A stretch of DNA of 24,566 nt from a virus (IMGVR_UViG_3300028129_000062:1-24566); one strand, 5' to 3'; shown: positions 16,139 to 22,363, counted from the stretch's first letter. Notes: generated by a model not told the origin, from the sequence alone. Made by a program: numbers and translations.

Positions 16139-16295
16139 ATTTAGCGTGCTTCATAGCGTGTTCATAGGCCTTGACTAATAACAAGTGCTGGTGTGGATTC
16201 TGAGGCCTAGAAACGCTTATCCTTACACCCCTACAATGGAATATAAAATTACTGACTACTTGTGCCATTTCTTCCTCTGTCTTACTTGATTGCAT
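16137..16295 (-). CDS. Small protein after the large terminase (52 aa)
   Basis: A 52-residue ORF beginning MQSSKTEEEMAQVVSNFIFH, then a basic His-rich half (SRPQNPHQHLLLVKAYEHAMKHAK). It overlaps the end of the terminase gene by 14 bp. A longer version starting at 16349 would overlap the terminase by 68 bp and begins with a hydrophobic segment that is the terminase gene read in another frame, so the short form is preferred. No family is recognised. It is the last gene of the operon, with the terminator overlapping its stop codon. Confidence 0.55.
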   Translation of the reverse strand: MQSSKTEEEMAQVVSNFIFHCRGVRISVSRPQNPHQHLLLVKAYEHAMKHAK

Positions 16296-17445
16296 ACTTA
16301 CCAAAGTTAGGTCTACTAAGAATAGAATAAGTAGCGTAGCGTAATCCATCTATAAGATGATTATTCTTGTCTTCTGGCTGATTAGTTAGCTTTCCACTCT
16401 TGTCTTCTTTCCACTTGTAAGACCGGAACTCTCTAACCAGGTTATCTGAAACCGGCACCAGGTTTAATGTGTATCGTTTAAGTAAATCAATACCAGCGTT
16501 TATGCTATCCTTACCCTTAACAGACGGCCTTATGTTCCAACCCATACGTCTAAGCTCATCATTTAATCTAGGCTCAGCTGAGTCTGCATAAACCAGGGAT
16601 CTATTAACGCCTATTTCTCCCAGGACTTTACTAATATCAGATGCAGTCATATGTGTTCTATAAAGATGCTCTTGGATATAAAGGTTTACCTCGTCTTTCC
16701 ATACTGATACGATTGCCGTAGGGTCATTAGAGTAGCCGTAATCCATACCATAGGCTACAAATGAAGCGTTTTCAGGAACTCTTAAACATTCTTGATACTT
16801 GAATATAGTTGAGCGTGAAGCTCCCCTCTCTCCCAGGCCGTATATTTGCCAATATTGTTCATCAGTATCTCGCAGCCTTTCAATCTCAGATATGATTGTT
16901 TCGTTTAGAAACGGATTATCTAAGTATGTGGTCTGATAAAACTCAGTATCTTCTCTTGTAATTACACGATCATAAATCCAATGAAACTCGTCTGATGGAT
17001 TGTAGTCTAATATAATCTTGTCTTGTGTTCTAAAGACCAGCTGCTGCCAATCCTCAAAGAATAATTCATTAGCCTCATTAATAAACAACAAATCTCTCTT
17101 CCGGCCTCTTACTTTCTGAGGCTGGTCTAGGGATATAAATTCAACCAGGTTACCGAATAGCTTATACTCAGAGCTTGACTTATTATGATTAGAGTCGTTA
17201 TAGATTTCATAGATTTTAAGAATGTCGATGAAGTCACGCATCACAGTCGCTCTTGTACTTGGAAATGTCTTTCTAGTGATTGTAATCACCTTTCCGTTAT
17301 GTCTATTGCAGTAAGAGAATATAATCCATAACAATATGTTATACGTCTTGCCTGACCTAGTACCACCTTGCTCTACTACTATCTTCTTTTGAGAGCTTTC
17401 TAAGTGGTCAAATATAACATTGGTATCAATCTTCTTTTTTGCCAT
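16282..17445 (-). CDS. terL: Terminase large subunit (ATPase and nuclease)
   Basis: A 387-residue DNA packaging motor. Walker A is GGTRSGKT (27-34), Walker B is LLFINEAN (119-126) with E124 as the likely catalytic base, and the coupling segment is ILDYNPS (145-151). The C-terminal RNase H-like nuclease begins at about residue 228: YGMDYGYSNDPTA holds D235, VYADSAEP holds D288, and NHLIDGLRYA holds D366. These three would form the metal site. The length is normal for the Terminase_3 / Terminase_6C type. It overlaps the small subunit gene by 20 bp. Its place directly after the DNA modification genes in one operon suggests that base modification and packaging are expressed together. Confidence 0.95.
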   Translation of the reverse strand: MAKKKIDTNVIFDHLESSQKKIVVEQGGTRSGKTYNILLWIIFSYCNRHNGKVITITRKTFPSTRATVMRDFIDILKIYEIYNDSNHNKSSSEYKLFGNLVEFISLDQPQKVRGRKRDLLFINEANELFFEDWQQLVFRTQDKIILDYNPSDEFHWIYDRVITREDTEFYQTTYLDNPFLNETIISEIERLRDTDEQYWQIYGLGERGASRSTIFKYQECLRVPENASFVAYGMDYGYSNDPTAIVSVWKDEVNLYIQEHLYRTHMTASDISKVLGEIGVNRSLVYADSAEPRLNDELRRMGWNIRPSVKGKDSINAGIDLLKRYTLNLVPVSDNLVREFRSYKWKEDKSGKLTNQPEDKNNHLIDGLRYATYSILSRPNFGKYAIK

Positions 17446-17782
17446 TCGTAATTATGTTTACCTCGAATGATGTTTGCTCTCCGTCTGCACCGGTTATCTC
17501 CTGGCGTTCTACATAACCTCTTTTCTTTCCTCTTGTCTTCAACAGAAATATAGTAGCCGGCACGCTACCCTCTTTAATCTGTAAATGTAGATGAGATTCT
17601 GCAAAATCAAGAATGACGTTCTCAAGGTCTGAAACCTCTTGAGCATAATCATTGTCTTCTTTTAACCAGCGATAATGTGTATTACGACTAATACCTACCA
17701 TTTTACAAGCCGTTGAAACTATGCAAAGCGTTTTCTCTAAAGCTTCGAGCATATTCTTTTTTAAGGTGTCACTATTTGTCAT
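17426..17782 (-). CDS. terS: Terminase small subunit
   Basis: A 118-residue DNA-binding protein. Residues about 15-45 hold a helix-turn-helix with VSTACKMVGISRNTHYRWLK. The C-terminal half has the family pattern GSVPATIFLLKTRGKKRGY followed by VERQEITGADGEQ. It would recognise the packaging start site and deliver DNA to the large subunit. It overlaps the kinase gene by 11 bp and the large subunit gene by 20 bp, so all three are translated as a block. Family and context agree; no odd features. Confidence 0.9.
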   Translation of the reverse strand: MTNSDTLKKNMLEALEKTLCIVSTACKMVGISRNTHYRWLKEDNDYAQEVSDLENVILDFAESHLHLQIKEGSVPATIFLLKTRGKKRGYVERQEITGADGEQTSFEVNIITNGKKED

Positions 17783-18242
17783 CTTCTATAAATGTTTTAA
17801 TTAACTGATATGCCTCGTCTGAGCCACTTGCTAATACGTCTTCTTTAATATTATTAACTCTTGTCCCAATGGACTTGATATGTCTTTCGGTTTGCTTAGA
17901 GCCTCTTATTTTACGCCCAGCTTTTCCGTCTCCACTAATTTTAAATATAACCGGCTTAGCCTTTATAATGAATGTGCTATTAGTAAACCTATCTCCCTCA
18001 CAGATAACCGTCTTGTGTTTAGACCAGGCCAGGAACTTATCTAAATCTGTTACCACACTCATACTAAGTCTATCACTACCTTCAAAAGTAGAGCCGTCAT
18101 AGACTCCTATAATAGCTATATCATCGTTATAATGAAATTTAAACTTTCCAATCTTGCCTGGCCGTAATTTATGGTCTGCTAAGAGCTGCTTCATTACCCA
18201 GGTCTTACCGACTCCACAAGCTCCTATTAATAGTATGTTCAT
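17772..18242 (-). CDS. P-loop kinase, probable 5-hydroxymethyluracil DNA kinase
   Basis: A 156-residue P-loop protein with Walker A GACGVGKT (7-14) at the very N-terminus. Later motifs include FEGSDRLSM (53-61), VICEGDRF (79-86) and a basic lid-like stretch KAGRKIRGSKQTERHIKS (107-124). The small size, a G-x-D-x-L-S motif and an EGDR motif fit the phage HMUDK family as I recall it. That family phosphorylates 5-hydroxymethyluracil in DNA to create a leaving group. The gene overlaps the aGPT-Pplase gene by ATGA, the enzyme that would use its product. By itself the protein could be any small P-loop kinase; the neighbours make the DNA kinase reading likely. The phosphate donor and whether one or two phosphates are added cannot be read from sequence. 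Confidence 0.75.
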   Translation of the reverse strand: MNILLIGACGVGKTWVMKQLLADHKLRPGKIGKFKFHYNDDIAIIGVYDGSTFEGSDRLSMSVVTDLDKFLAWSKHKTVICEGDRFTNSTFIIKAKPVIFKISGDGKAGRKIRGSKQTERHIKSIGTRVNNIKEDVLASGSDEAYQLIKTFIEDDK

Positions 18243-19345
18243 CGTTGTCTAATGTAATCATTTAAATCGTTTGTAAAGTCATCCCATTCCCTATCCATCA
18301 TAATAACTTGACCGGTCGTTCTGTAATGGTTTTGCTTTATCTTGCCAAAGCCAGGGTCTGCCGGTGTACTTTCTAACCTAAGATAACTCGGTAAGACGTC
18401 TTCACGGCTATCCCAAAATATCTTAAACTTGTTTTTACTTTGCCATTGCTTTTCTGCGTATCTTATTCTATCGTGAAACATATCGTTGTAAACATTAGGA
18501 TAACGTCTGTTAGGCCTATGCCAGGACTTATAACAACATAGAGTGGTTTCCAATGTGAAATAACTTAAGTCTTTATGTGGAAATCTTGCCTCTGCCTCTG
18601 CCAGCAGCTTGACCCCCTCTGACTGAAGCCAGGTTATTGTATCATCTGCATAATGTACTTCATTCTTCCACCAGTCTAAATCATCACGGCCTAACACTTT
18701 ACAAAGACCATTCCTATGCGACTTACTTCCTGATATGTTACTTAGAAATAACGTATCACAATCTAAATGGAGGCCAGCTATTTTAAGATACTCTAAATAA
18801 CTGAATGTAGCCAGGCGTCCAAAGGTGTAAAAATTGTTGATAACAAAGTCCCAGGTGCGTCTAAAGTTCTCATACTTATCATCGGTGCTGCAAAGCTCTT
18901 TGAATAGGTCTTCTTGTGACCGGCCTCTTAACACTTCTTTGTACTTTATGATGCAGTCTTCAAATATGTTTTTTATGTATCGTCTGTCTGTGTCCCAACC
19001 CAGCTTGAGGTAATGCGTGCGATACCAGGAGCTAAACTCTTTGATGTCTAAATTTTTGAGGCTTGGAAACTTTTCAAATATCAAATATGTGGTAAGTACA
19101 TTCTGTGAGCATCCGTTAATGAATGTAAACCAAAGCTGCTCCTCGAGATCTAAATCTAACTCTTTAAAAATATGTGGTATTGCATAATAAACTGCTCCAG
19201 CGTGTCCCTGATATTTCAAATGAAATTCATAGAATCTTAAAAAAACTTCACGCCTATATTGAGGCAATCTAAAGTCAAGACCAGGCACTAAATCAGACTG
19301 CTCTGATATACCATTTATGTCACAATATCTCTTATTTTCAATCAT
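18239..19345 (-). CDS. Alpha-glutamyl/putrescinyl thymine pyrophosphorylase-like enzyme (aGPT-Pplase), amino-compound:DNA transferase
   Basis: A 368-residue helical protein that I place in the aGPT-Pplase superfamily, which is related to DNA glycosylase folds. These enzymes replace the phosphate on activated 5-hydroxymethyluracil in DNA with an amino acid or amine. Supporting segments are FINGCSQNVLTTYLIFEKFP (75-94), FGRLATFSYLEYL (175-187), ISGSKSHRNGLCKVLG (204-219) and TLETTLCCYKSW (265-276), followed by RRYPNVYNDMF (280-290). The ETxxCxYK...RYPxxxxDE-like block is the most telling part. The gene is coupled by ATGA to the kinase and lies in the same operon as the oxygenase and PLP enzyme. 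Clade 2 seems more likely than clade 1, but this is from memory. The attached amino compound cannot be told from sequence. Confidence 0.75.
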   Translation of the reverse strand: MIENKRYCDINGISEQSDLVPGLDFRLPQYRREVFLRFYEFHLKYQGHAGAVYYAIPHIFKELDLDLEEQLWFTFINGCSQNVLTTYLIFEKFPSLKNLDIKEFSSWYRTHYLKLGWDTDRRYIKNIFEDCIIKYKEVLRGRSQEDLFKELCSTDDKYENFRRTWDFVINNFYTFGRLATFSYLEYLKIAGLHLDCDTLFLSNISGSKSHRNGLCKVLGRDDLDWWKNEVHYADDTITWLQSEGVKLLAEAEARFPHKDLSYFTLETTLCCYKSWHRPNRRYPNVYNDMFHDRIRYAEKQWQSKNKFKIFWDSREDVLPSYLRLESTPADPGFGKIKQNHYRTTGQVIMMDREWDDFTNDLNDYIRQR

Positions 19346-19370
19346 TTTCTATATTTTATTTTTCAGCTCT

Positions 19371-19472
19371 CTATGTATCGTCAGCAGTAGATTTTTTATT
19401 TTCGTAAGATTTCAATAGCAGTATGTCCCAAAGGTGTGAAAAGCTCTTAAAACGTCTTAAAAGTGGCTTCAA
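19371..19472 (-). CDS. Possible TTG-started mini-gene between the PLP enzyme and aGPT-Pplase genes (33 aa)
   Basis: This is the only sizeable gap in the modification block. A 33-codon frame starts at a TTG that overlaps the PLP enzyme stop as TTGA, the same geometry as the ATGA overlaps elsewhere in the operon. The product would read KPLLRRFKSFSHLWDILLL, then a hydrophilic end KSYENKKSTADDT. It is basic at the N-terminus with a central amphipathic helix. There is no ATG in this frame. If it is not a gene, the 123-bp gap holds no other signal that I can see. Function unknown. Confidence 0.4.
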   Translation of the reverse strand: MKPLLRRFKSFSHLWDILLLKSYENKKSTADDT

Positions 19473-20476
19473 TTAACTACTGGAAAAACCTCCCTTGGCT
19501 CATTTCCGACCACCCAAAAGAGTGTATTTTTGTTTAAATATTTGTCAAATGTTTCAGGATTCTGTTTCATCCAGTTCCATATTTTACCCTCATACCTTGG
19601 GTGCAAATCTATGCCACCAAAATTGAAAGGCATCCAATCACCGTACGTGCAAAATCCAGTTCCATTTATGTCGTGATGAATTAAATGTATGCCAGTATTT
19701 TTGTCATTGAACATTGTATATTTGAATGCTGAATTAAGATTTTTGCCAATAACTTTGCTAATGATTTTCAAACGCTGAGGTATGTATTTTAAATTGTATG
19801 AGCCATTATTACCGATTCCCATAAGTAATATTCTCTTTAAATTACGAGGTGGATTCTGAGATATACCATACAGAATGCTAACCACTGAATTACAAGAGCC
19901 ACACGGAATAATCATTGTTTCAATATCATCAGGAATGTTGGCTACCTGATAACTTCCTATCTTATGAAAAGCCTCTATTCGCTCAGGTGGATTTAATCTC
20001 TCGTCTACGGTAATATTAGTTTCTAATACTTCGTGTCCTGGCAGCTTCTTGGCTAACTGAAAGGCCTTTGATTGCAAAGCTCTAGCATAACCAATCTTTT
20101 CTACTTTGAACTGAGCTCCCATACGATGTGCTAGTATCATATTAGTATGCTTCATATAATGCTTGCTACCGGTTACTATTAAACACCCCAGGTCATAATG
20201 CTTACATATTGAGGATATGAAAGGATGTTGTGGACTACCTACTACTGAGCCTGAAACTATACCGGTAATATTTTTTGTTTTAACCCATTCATCTACGAGC
20301 CATAAACATTGCCTCATCTTAGAGCCGTTTACTCCGTTGAAGCCTAATGGTGCAAACTTGTCTTCACGCTTAAATTTTACCCCTCCGTACTCTTCTACTG
20401 GTGTGAGGTCTTTTAGGTAATCCGACCAGCGTATCTGAGATCTATCAAAACTATATTGTGGAAATATGCTATTCAT
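19469..20476 (-). CDS. Fold-type II PLP-dependent enzyme, probable DNA-base tailoring enzyme
   Basis: A 335-residue member of the tryptophan synthase beta / ACC deaminase / cysteine synthase fold. GVKFKREDKFAPLGFNGVNG (32-51) leads into GSKMRQ, where K53 is the likely PLP Schiff-base lysine. SGSVVGSPQHP (75-85) is the substrate loop and PCGSCNSVVS (191-200) is the Gly/Ser loop that binds the PLP phosphate. It ends with a normal C-terminal helix (WVVGNEPREVFPVVN). It overlaps the oxygenase gene by 8 bp. PLP enzymes are known in phage thymine hypermodification clusters, where they alter the amino acid attached to the base. The fold type here would allow elimination, replacement or deamination chemistry. 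That it acts on DNA is inferred from context; a free amino acid substrate is possible. Confidence 0.75.
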   Translation of the reverse strand: MNSIFPQYSFDRSQIRWSDYLKDLTPVEEYGGVKFKREDKFAPLGFNGVNGSKMRQCLWLVDEWVKTKNITGIVSGSVVGSPQHPFISSICKHYDLGCLIVTGSKHYMKHTNMILAHRMGAQFKVEKIGYARALQSKAFQLAKKLPGHEVLETNITVDERLNPPERIEAFHKIGSYQVANIPDDIETMIIPCGSCNSVVSILYGISQNPPRNLKRILLMGIGNNGSYNLKYIPQRLKIISKVIGKNLNSAFKYTMFNDKNTGIHLIHHDINGTGFCTYGDWMPFNFGGIDLHPRYEGKIWNWMKQNPETFDKYLNKNTLFWVVGNEPREVFPVVN

Positions 20477-21224
20477 TTAAAAATGCTTTAAGAGGATAAA
20501 ACACTAAAGTATTACGATAACCCTCGTCAGCTAAAGGTACGATAGGAGTAACTCCGTGTACATTACGCCAGGCCGGATATACTAACATCGAATTATCGCA
20601 GCTATCTATAGTGGCACCATAATCAGGAATAGTAGTACAACCCCCTTTGCTATTTTGACGCTTGCAGATAATCACATTTACTGCTCCGACCAGGTTTGCA
20701 GTATCTCTATGATAAGGAGCTGCTATGTTGTAATTAGAAATAGAGCTTGTAAACATATTACCAAACTTCCATTTATCATCTATGCCTTTAAATAACTCTA
20801 ATTGCTTTTCGTAGATGTTAGGTGCCAGCTGCTTAATTAGTAACTCAGATTCTTTTGCAGCCAGGCTCATAGCCTTTACAAAGTTCTTTGCAGATTTAAC
20901 TGAATGTACTGAGCTAATAGTAGAGTAAGGTCTTCTCATATGAGGCCTTGGTGGTACTGCTCCTAAGATTGTGCTAAACTGTAGTACGCCTGAGCTTCGC
21001 TTCATAGTTGCTTTAGGAACTCGTTTTGACCTAAGCTCTGAATCGGCCAGGTTGATGAAGCTGCCCAGCCTTTCAGAATACTTATTAACATCTCTAATAT
21101 AGAAGCCTATAAGCTCGTCATTATCATAAAAAAGTGAATCCTCAGTAACATTAGGCTCTATGTATTCACAAACATCTCCGACCTTTACCGAGTGTTCAAC
21201 CTTATTTAAATTAATCCTTTTCAT
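20469..21224 (-). CDS. TET/JBP-type 2-oxoglutarate and Fe(II)-dependent DNA dioxygenase
   Basis: A 251-residue protein whose C-terminal half carries the full double-stranded beta-helix signature. APYHRDTAN (169-177) gives iron ligands H172 and D174, plus N177 in the same place as the base-contacting Asn of human TET2 (HRDxxN). NVHGVTPIVP (221-230) gives the third ligand H223, and YRNTLVFYP (236-244) gives R237 for 2-oxoglutarate. TET2 has a similar end, H-x-TTP...R-x-x-LVFY. Residues 1-160 are a family-specific helical region. In this operon the likely reaction is oxidation of thymine in DNA to 5-hydroxymethyluracil, the substrate of the downstream kinase. Oxidation of 5-methylcytosine is the alternative, but no cytosine methyltransferase is in the window. 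It overlaps the second ParB gene by 14 bp. Confidence 0.85.
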   Translation of the reverse strand: MKRINLNKVEHSVKVGDVCEYIEPNVTEDSLFYDNDELIGFYIRDVNKYSERLGSFINLADSELRSKRVPKATMKRSSGVLQFSTILGAVPPRPHMRRPYSTISSVHSVKSAKNFVKAMSLAAKESELLIKQLAPNIYEKQLELFKGIDDKWKFGNMFTSSISNYNIAAPYHRDTANLVGAVNVIICKRQNSKGGCTTIPDYGATIDSCDNSMLVYPAWRNVHGVTPIVPLADEGYRNTLVFYPLKAFLNE

Positions 21225-21765
21225 AACCTTTCTTGACGTTTCTTAATTCTTCTAACAATAGACCTCCTACGTATATGTTTCGCTCTCTAAAGTGCTTATT
21301 ATACCTTAGAGCATCATCTTTTAGCATATCTACTTTAATATGCATCGCTTTCTTTACGTTTGACTCGTAATTATCAATCTCGTCTTCTAAGTCTTCATAG
21401 TCTAAAATCGAATAGTCTATAGTTGTCTTTCCAAACCAGTCATTAAATTGTGGAAATTTATCCTGGATAACTTCTTCATCCCATTCGCCAAAACTAATAT
21501 TGTCTTTGATAACTAATTCTTGCTTTTGCTTATCAGTAAAATTTGTTACTTGCTTTACCTCAACATCTTTATTACCAAGCTCTACCCAGGCTCTATATCT
21601 CATATTACCAGCCAGGATAGTATTGTTCTCATCAATAATTATCGGCCTTACATTCATCATATCAGGAAAATCAGTCAGGGACTTCTTTAAGGCTTCGTAC
21701 TTATGCGTGTCTATGATACGTGGATTATTCTCATAGGTGTTTAATTGGCTTACTTTAATCTTCAT
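21211..21765 (-). CDS. ParB/Srx-fold protein, second of a tandem pair
   Basis: A 184-residue protein. Residues about 1-90 are a ParB-like domain with VSQLNTYENNPRIID, then IIIDENNTILAGNMRYRAWV, where GNMRY is the nucleotide-binding motif in place of the usual GERR. Residues 75-106 add VEVKQVTNFTDKQKQELVIK and DNISFGEWD. This second part is also found in phage ParB-methyltransferase fusions. No methyltransferase or helix-turn-helix domain follows. The C-terminus (residues 107-184) is acidic then basic. It overlaps the first ParB gene by 11 bp and the oxygenase gene by 14 bp. Its N-terminal 110 residues are roughly 40-45% identical by eye to those of the first copy, so the pair arose by duplication. 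A targeting or CTP-hydrolysing role in base modification is inferred. Confidence 0.8.
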   Translation of the reverse strand: MKIKVSQLNTYENNPRIIDTHKYEALKKSLTDFPDMMNVRPIIIDENNTILAGNMRYRAWVELGNKDVEVKQVTNFTDKQKQELVIKDNISFGEWDEEVIQDKFPQFNDWFGKTTIDYSILDYEDLEDEIDNYESNVKKAMHIKVDMLKDDALRYNKHFRERNIYVGGLLLEELRNVKKGYEKD

Positions 21766-22363
21766 AATTATCTTTTAAAACTTTAACTAAAATATCTCCT
21801 ACCGAGCCACCCAGGTCTGTGACGTCTTTTGCTAATTGATAAGCAGCCGGATAGTCGTTTATATCAAACTCTACTACATAAACTGGAGGCTTCTCACTTA
21901 CGTTTTCAGAGCCATCTATATCAGCCATATCATTTTTAGGATTCTCGTCTTCAAAGTCATAATCCATATCATCATCAATAGCTTCTTGTGGCTGCCATAC
22001 GTTTAATCCAAACTCTTTAAGTTCTCCAGGATCATAATCGTTACCCAGGATGTCCCAATCCCATACTCCGTAATTAACATTGTCTTTAACTACGAACTCT
22101 TTTTTACGCTCAGCTGAAAGGCCGGTAACTTGAATTACCGGTACCTCTTTAACTCTAAGCTCCTTTAATGCTAAATATCTTTGATTACCCCCCAGAATAA
22201 ACCCATCCTCATCTATTACTACTTCTCTTAATTCTAACATTTCAGGAAAATCTCTCAAACTCTTTACGAGCTTTTGAAAGTTACTATCTCTAATTACCCT
22301 GGGATTATCAGGATTCGGCTTCAACTGGCTCAGCTTGTACTTCGATATTCTTTGCTGCTTCAT
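21755..22363 (-). CDS. ParB/Srx-fold protein, first of a tandem pair
   Basis: A 202-residue protein with a ParB-like domain at residues about 7-90: LSQLKPNPDNPRVIRD, VVIDEDGFILGGNQRYLAL and VPVIQVTGLSAERKKE. The same VVKDNVNYGVWDWD block as its neighbour follows. A strongly acidic linker at about 128-155 leads to a small C-terminal domain (PPVYVVEFDINDYPAAYQLA). The start overlaps the DnaA-like gene by 56 bp; no later Met precedes the conserved NPR motif, so the long overlap seems real. ParB-like proteins are common near phage terminases and modification enzymes. The two-copy arrangement may allow a heterodimer, which is speculation. Confidence 0.8.
   Translation of the reverse strand: MKQQRISKYKLSQLKPNPDNPRVIRDSNFQKLVKSLRDFPEMLELREVVIDEDGFILGGNQRYLALKELRVKEVPVIQVTGLSAERKKEFVVKDNVNYGVWDWDILGNDYDPGELKEFGLNVWQPQEAIDDDMDYDFEDENPKNDMADIDGSENVSEKPPVYVVEFDINDYPAAYQLAKDVTDLGGSVGDILVKVLKDNYED

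Follow-up and report, generated by a model that had tools for sequence, protein, structure and literature searches.

The virus contig IMGVR_UViG_3300028129_000062, 24,566 bases long and probably incomplete, was analysed at its full length (the window, in which all coordinates are counted) and carries on its minus strand, at 17772-22363, a cassette of six genes for two ParB_N-domain proteins (ParB1 and ParB2), an oxygenase of the TET/JBP type, a pyridoxal phosphate (PLP)-dependent enzyme, an amino acid:DNA transferase of the aGPT-Pplase family (ADDT) and a P-loop kinase. As judged from sequence comparison, the cassette probably encodes a post-replicative pathway by which the phage hypermodifies thymine, with a product like that of Salmonella phage ViI. 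All six genes were found on the minus strand where an earlier note, made from the sequence alone, had placed them, and the families it had named were borne out by Pfam, PHROGs, profile comparisons and motifs. The note had described six adjacent, overlapping genes. The adjacency holds, and from ParB1 through the terminase small subunit-like gene (TerS) neighbours overlap by 4-14 nucleotides (nt), the sole exception being the PLP and ADDT genes, which lie 123 nt apart (19346-19468), a gap in which inspection brought out no clear element. Since the gene order is kept in independent contigs at 55-100% identity, these genes are not chance open reading frames (ORFs). The cassette sits immediately upstream of the terminase genes, the kinase gene overlapping TerS by 11 nt, and what remains of the window is the late region of a tailed phage, with a portal-like protein and an XkdF-type protease among its products.

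Table. Genes of the cassette and its immediate neighbours in the 24,566-base window
Feature	Length (aa)	Coordinates	Strand	Basis or position
DnaA-C-like gene		22763-22308	minus	5' of the ParB1 gene
ParB_N-domain protein 1 (ParB1)	202	21755..22363	minus	PF02195 E 0.0041; phrog_498 E 8e-26
ParB_N-domain protein 2 (ParB2)	184	21211..21765	minus	PF02195 E 0.0021
TET/JBP 2-oxoglutarate/Fe(II) oxygenase	251	20469..21224	minus	PF12851 E 5.8e-9
PLP-dependent enzyme, fold type II	335	19469..20476	minus	Similarity to Vi01_182
ADDT (amino acid:DNA transferase, aGPT-Pplase family)	368	18239..19345	minus	PF18724 E 1.6e-18
P-loop kinase	156	17772..18242	minus	Walker A and EGDR motifs, profile matches
Terminase small subunit-like gene (TerS)	118	17426..17782	minus	phrog_4102 E 4.9e-7
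Terminase large subunit (TerL)	387	16282..17445	minus	PF04466 E 3.3e-22

The oxygenase exceeds the Pfam cut-off for Tet_JBP (PF12851; 35.8 bits against 34.9) and matches TET2 by profile (E 1.7e-9), and its catalytic residues H172-x-D174, H223 and R237 are invariant. In Foldseek its AlphaFold model (pLDDT 95.7) retrieved CcTet, TET2, NgTET1 and CMD1 (E 1e-11 to 1e-9). We predict that the protein is a DNA thymine hydroxylase and strongly infer thymine to be its substrate. Pocket residues were considered as a discriminator between thymine and cytosine and dropped: N177, three residues after D174, is common to actinophage TETs and human TET2, and an aspartate is found at this position in both methyltransferase-linked and ADDT-linked TETs. 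In PHROGs and RefSeq the TET genes of numerous phages (phrog_6059, NC_020847.1, NC_023701.1 and others) carry the label queuine tRNA-ribosyltransferase; since the window TET matches phrog_6059 at 7.7e-51, this label looks like a propagated misannotation.

The PLP enzyme matches Pfam PALP at an E-value of only 0.15. It does belong to phrog_3650 (E 7e-78), and along 97% of its length it shares 38% identity with Vi01_182, the PALP-domain protein of phage ViI (Vi01). This full-length homology, together with the invariant PLP lysine K53 of the NGSK53 motif, places it among the ViI-type enzymes. Among solved structures its profile comes nearest to ACC deaminase (E 1.7e-6) and D-cysteine desulfhydrase, the NGSK lysine stretch aligning with GGNK. 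The 368-residue ADDT lies well inside the aGPT-Pplase family (PF18724; 67.7 bits against a curated cut-off of 26.2), a placement on which the earlier note had staked its proposal in advance. The gp3 region of the mycobacteriophage Prince is 38% identical to it, and the Kuttervirus ADDT is a homologue (28% identity). A sequence search of the PDB gave no match. ADDT and kinase are joined in a single ORF in the related contigs L054-L056 and L065. Such natural ADDT-kinase fusions lie at 7998-9494 in L054 and 7917-9506 in L065, PLP-ADDT fusions also occur, and L069 6807-9080 is listed among the fusion ORFs of these two kinds; the final kinase and PLP profiles were built without any of them.

In the kinase the Walker A motif (G7-GKT14) and EGDR82-85 are invariant. 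With 16.6 bits (E 0.006) it remains under the cut-off of 27 for PF18751 (Ploopntkinase3), but its profile matches the TET-linked kinases of the actinophages Prince, Wooper and Tonitrus at 1e-20 to 1e-24, of which the Prince and Wooper proteins match PF18751 at 1e-58 to 1e-72. The profile also aligns in its N-terminal half with gp54 of Pseudomonas phage M6, a PF18748 5-hydroxymethyldeoxyuridine (5-hmdU) DNA kinase (hhalign probability 95%). The window kinase would thus work like HMUDK/Ploopntkinase3 proteins, of which it is not a formal member, and is predicted to be a 5-hydroxymethyl-pyrimidine DNA kinase. Its AlphaFold model (pLDDT 92.3) resembles small P-loop kinases weakly in Foldseek (hCINAP, E 6.5e-4), and the PDB sequence search returned P-loop noise only. 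M6 gp54 (NC_007809.1; L147 13686-14249) is labelled a terminase small subunit and is a PF18748 protein at 7.7e-18; phrog_800, matched by the window kinase, is likewise labelled a terminase small subunit.

In the proposed pathway the TET protein would act on finished DNA, oxidising thymine at its 5-methyl group to 5-hydroxymethyluracil, and would stand in for the dUMP hydroxymethylase of classic phages, a thymidylate synthase (TS) homologue. The kinase would phosphorylate the new hydroxyl, as its family and the gene swaps described below suggest, and ADDT, of a family known from 5-hmdU phages, would exchange the phosphate for an amino acid. The PLP enzyme would then strip off part of this amino acid, most likely by decarboxylation as in ViI, leaving 5-(2-aminoethoxy)methyl-dU or a close relative; the benefit to the phage would probably be resistance to host nucleases. 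Free amino acids are reportedly installed by ADDT and decarboxylated by PLP enzymes (Lee et al. 2022). A ViI-like product is predicted because the PLP enzyme is so similar to that of ViI and because ADDT is homologous to the Kuttervirus ADDT. ViI DNA contains 5-(2-aminoethoxy)methyl-dU (5-NeOmdU), and in M6, ViI and phi W-14 the 5-hmdU in DNA is believed to receive a phosphate from a 5-hmdU DNA kinase before it is modified further (PMC6449724).

The PLP step is where the product might depart from that of ViI. The cassette could oxidise thymine as proposed and yet use other PLP chemistry (elimination or racemisation) or another amino acid, a sub-case that is compatible with the main claim and that we consider rather unlikely. 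It would agree with the proximity of the PLP profile to ACC deaminase and D-cysteine desulfhydrase, and with the dispensability of the PLP gene (contig L006, see below), whereas the similarity to the ViI enzyme over nearly the full length argues for the ViI-type product.

The choice between thymine and cytosine was approached by comparison of loci. A TET search of IMG/VR yielded 32 contigs and an ADDT search 29 new ones; 71 loci with a TET of the type found in Methylophilales phage Melnitz served as the control set. The counts that follow cover related sequences and not independent events. A TET that acts on cytosine requires 5-methylcytosine (5mC), and a C5-methyltransferase gene adjoins the TET gene in all 66 Melnitz-type loci with usable upstream sequence, but in none of the 28 window-type loci (those whose upstream sequence extends for at least 900 nt); one C5-methyltransferase gene fragment lies about 7.8 kb from the TET gene in L007. 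PF00145, the C5-methyltransferase family whose adjacency marks TET-based cytosine hypermodification, is absent from the window record, from the ADDT contigs and from the complete TET-ADDT phages Prince, Wooper and Tonitrus. A tree built from 53 TETs unites the methyltransferase-linked proteins in one well-supported clade and distributes the ADDT-linked ones over several separate clades. Since thymine needs no prior methylation and the window-type TETs lack an adjacent methyltransferase, the locus counts favour thymine over cytosine, short of proof. The order of steps put forward in the earlier note, in which the base is oxidised in finished DNA, phosphorylated, loaded and tailored, is supported by the comparative evidence, with thymine as the oxidised base standing as a strong inference only.

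Several observations weigh against the thymine pathway. The TET fold is equally near to 5mC enzymes, and N177 is shared with human TET2, itself a 5mC enzyme. Melnitz-type phages, too, have members of the kinase family next to a C5-methyltransferase (by profile in 27 of the 71 loci), so that such kinases may have hydroxymethylcytosine as a substrate, and a search of Vi01 with the window kinase profile gave no match. Moreover, the record is a 24.6-kb fragment, and the sequence beyond it may hold a TS homologue or a methyltransferase. On a cytosine route, the TET would oxidise 5mC made by the host or by a phage methyltransferase outside the sequenced part, and kinase, ADDT and PLP enzyme would build a hypermodified cytosine. 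Many phage TETs lie beside C5-methyltransferases, in some cases together with a homologous kinase (Melnitz and related contigs), and the nearest solved structures are TETs of the 5mC/N6-methyladenine type. The absence of PF00145 next to the window-type TETs and from the complete TET-ADDT phages, and the fact that functionally characterised relatives of ADDT and of the PLP enzyme act on 5-hmdU, make this route improbable to our mind.

The TS homologue and the TET protein appear to be alternatives for the first step. In the eight complete phages compared they are mutually exclusive: ViI, SH19, M6 and Montesquieu have the TS homologue without a TET, MED4-184, Prince, Wooper and Tonitrus the TET without a TS homologue, and no complete ADDT phage has both. 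The earlier note had named a dUMP hydroxymethylase as the gene to look for; PF00303, the family of this enzyme, which defines classic thymidine hypermodification, was found neither in the window record, nor in the 32 related TET contigs, nor in the four complete TET-bearing phages. A pre-replicative start, in which hydroxymethyl-dUTP (hmdUTP) made by a TS homologue encoded beyond the fragment would bring in the 5-hydroxymethyluracil and the TET would act otherwise, for instance in further oxidation, is left room by the fragmentary record and finds a parallel in the TET-less ADDT contig G058 with its TS homologue, but is very hard to reconcile with these absences and with the mutual exclusion.

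Both ParB proteins match ParB_N (PF02195) under the Pfam cut-off (E 0.002-0.004) and fall into phrog_498 and phrog_620 at 1e-24 to 1e-26; in pairwise comparison they are paralogues (41% identity over 135 aa). A ParB gene lies upstream of the TET gene in 28/28 window-type loci and a terminase gene downstream in 21/22, whereas no ParB of this kind was detected in the Melnitz-type TET loci. Because ParB is constant beside the TET where the methyltransferase is absent, the ParB_N proteins may perhaps help the TET to engage or select DNA. Alternatively, they could be genes hitch-hiking near the terminase. ParB is not universal, as none was found near some ADDT-paired TETs of larger phages (L052, L060).

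The window cassette is carried by six of the 32 TET contigs (L001-L006). The remaining TET contigs retain the ParB-TET-terminase arrangement and differ in the tailoring gene, which is a lone kinase (L021-L025, L029), a TET-associated glycosyltransferase (TAGT; by Pfam in L009, L014 and L026, by similarity on inspection in L016-L018, L027 and L031), an FkbM methyltransferase (L007 and, by similarity, the isolate MED4-184) or absent (L008, L011-L013). Between L024 and L026 the DNA to either side of one gene is 90% identical, the gene itself being a kinase in the former and a TAGT in the latter, which indicates that two types of hydroxyl-acting enzyme share one slot between ParB and TET. Similarly, L005 and L006 are 92-96% identical save for the PLP gene missing from L006, so that PLP tailoring is optional. 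Contig L144, from a metagenome-assembled genome of the Flavobacteriaceae, shares the window backbone (TerL 67%, an 815-aa late-region protein 68%) and carries ParB, a glycosyltransferase-like gene and TET, that is, another module in the same slot; the shared backbone suggests that the phage probably infects Flavobacteriaceae. A Tet_JBP domain is encoded in 20 of the 29 ADDT-search contigs, and of the nine that lack it six break off in or near the cassette; the remaining three, which are long (27, 155 and 110 kb), carry an ADDT-PLP pair, G058 being among them.

Some further genes were noticed in the cassettes compared. The FkbM-type gene between ParB and TET lies at 9322-10014 in L007 and at 7282-7983 in L033 (Prochlorococcus phage MED4-184). 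One cassette of a larger phage has, between its ADDT and kinase genes, a gene for a small protein that looks acetyltransferase-like (L060 9206-9781). In the cytosine-type cassette of Melnitz a 427-aa protein without Pfam match lies between TET and kinase (L072 6269-7552) and resembles, on inspection only, a GIY-YIG plus ParB-like protein.

Among the nearest known systems are the actinophage cassettes (Mycobacterium phage Prince, Gordonia phage Wooper, Rhodococcus phage Tonitrus): like the window they have contiguous ParB, TET, ADDT and kinase genes near the terminase and no TS homologue, but they lack the PLP enzyme and their TETs are only about 26-28% identical to that of the window. Wooper and Tonitrus differ further in an extra uncharacterised gene and an ADDT of another clade, unmatched by the window profile. 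This gene follows the kinase (L035 3054-3926; L037 3761-4642) and encodes a nucleotide-binding-like N-terminus with weak UDPG dehydrogenase/ApbA matches, possibly a flavin or NAD tailoring enzyme. ViI and other Ackermannviridae (5-NeOmdU) share the homologous PLP enzyme and ADDT, but use a TS-type nucleotide hydroxymethylase (PF00303), have scattered genes and lack TET and a match to the kinase profile. M6 (5-NedU) has an ADDT-family protein (gp51, PF18724) and the distantly related kinase gp54, whereas it follows the TS route with other tailoring enzymes and no TET. MED4-184 and the IMG/VR cassettes share the TET subfamily (51% identity) and the terminase-adjacent position, and differ in the tailoring gene, which, where there is one, encodes an FkbM-type methyltransferase, a TAGT or a kinase on its own. 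In Melnitz-type cassettes the TET, often with a homologous kinase, belongs to a separate clade and is preceded by a C5-cytosine methyltransferase.

The general idea is already known: sets of ParB, TET, aGPT-Pplase and kinase genes are annotated in actinophages, and the earlier note had overstated the novelty of the cassette. TET-generated hydroxymethyl pyrimidines are said to have been predicted computationally as starting points by Iyer et al. in 2013. A thymine hypermodification system has been named in Tonitrus by one paper. In the literature outside the main specialist papers we found no account of a TET route that includes a ViI-type PLP enzyme, nor of the kinase/glycosyltransferase swap or the split between ParB and methyltransferase.

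A wider reading, which we put forward only tentatively, is that ParB-linked phage TETs form a general platform for thymine oxidation. In place of the methyltransferase, ParB would be the partner that targets DNA. An exchangeable slot, filled by a glycosyltransferase, a methyltransferase, a kinase by itself or a kinase-ADDT pair to which a PLP enzyme may be added, would determine the hypermodified thymine that is made, after replication and in concert with packaging; for the window the result would be a ViI-type amino-modified thymine independent of hmdUTP. The slot predicts several specific bases: a methylated hydroxymethyl base for the FkbM-type cassettes (L007, MED4-184) and, for the contigs with TET and kinase and no adjoining ADDT or PLP gene (L021-L025, L029), a phosphomethyl pyrimidine as the end product, or a partner encoded elsewhere. 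The cassette also offers candidate enzymes for placing amine handles in ordinary thymine DNA. If the thymine pathway is correct, one exotic DNA base would be reached by two unrelated first steps, the hydroxymethylation of a free nucleotide and the oxidation of thymine within DNA, of which the latter would permit partial or site-selective modification without replacement of the nucleotide pool.

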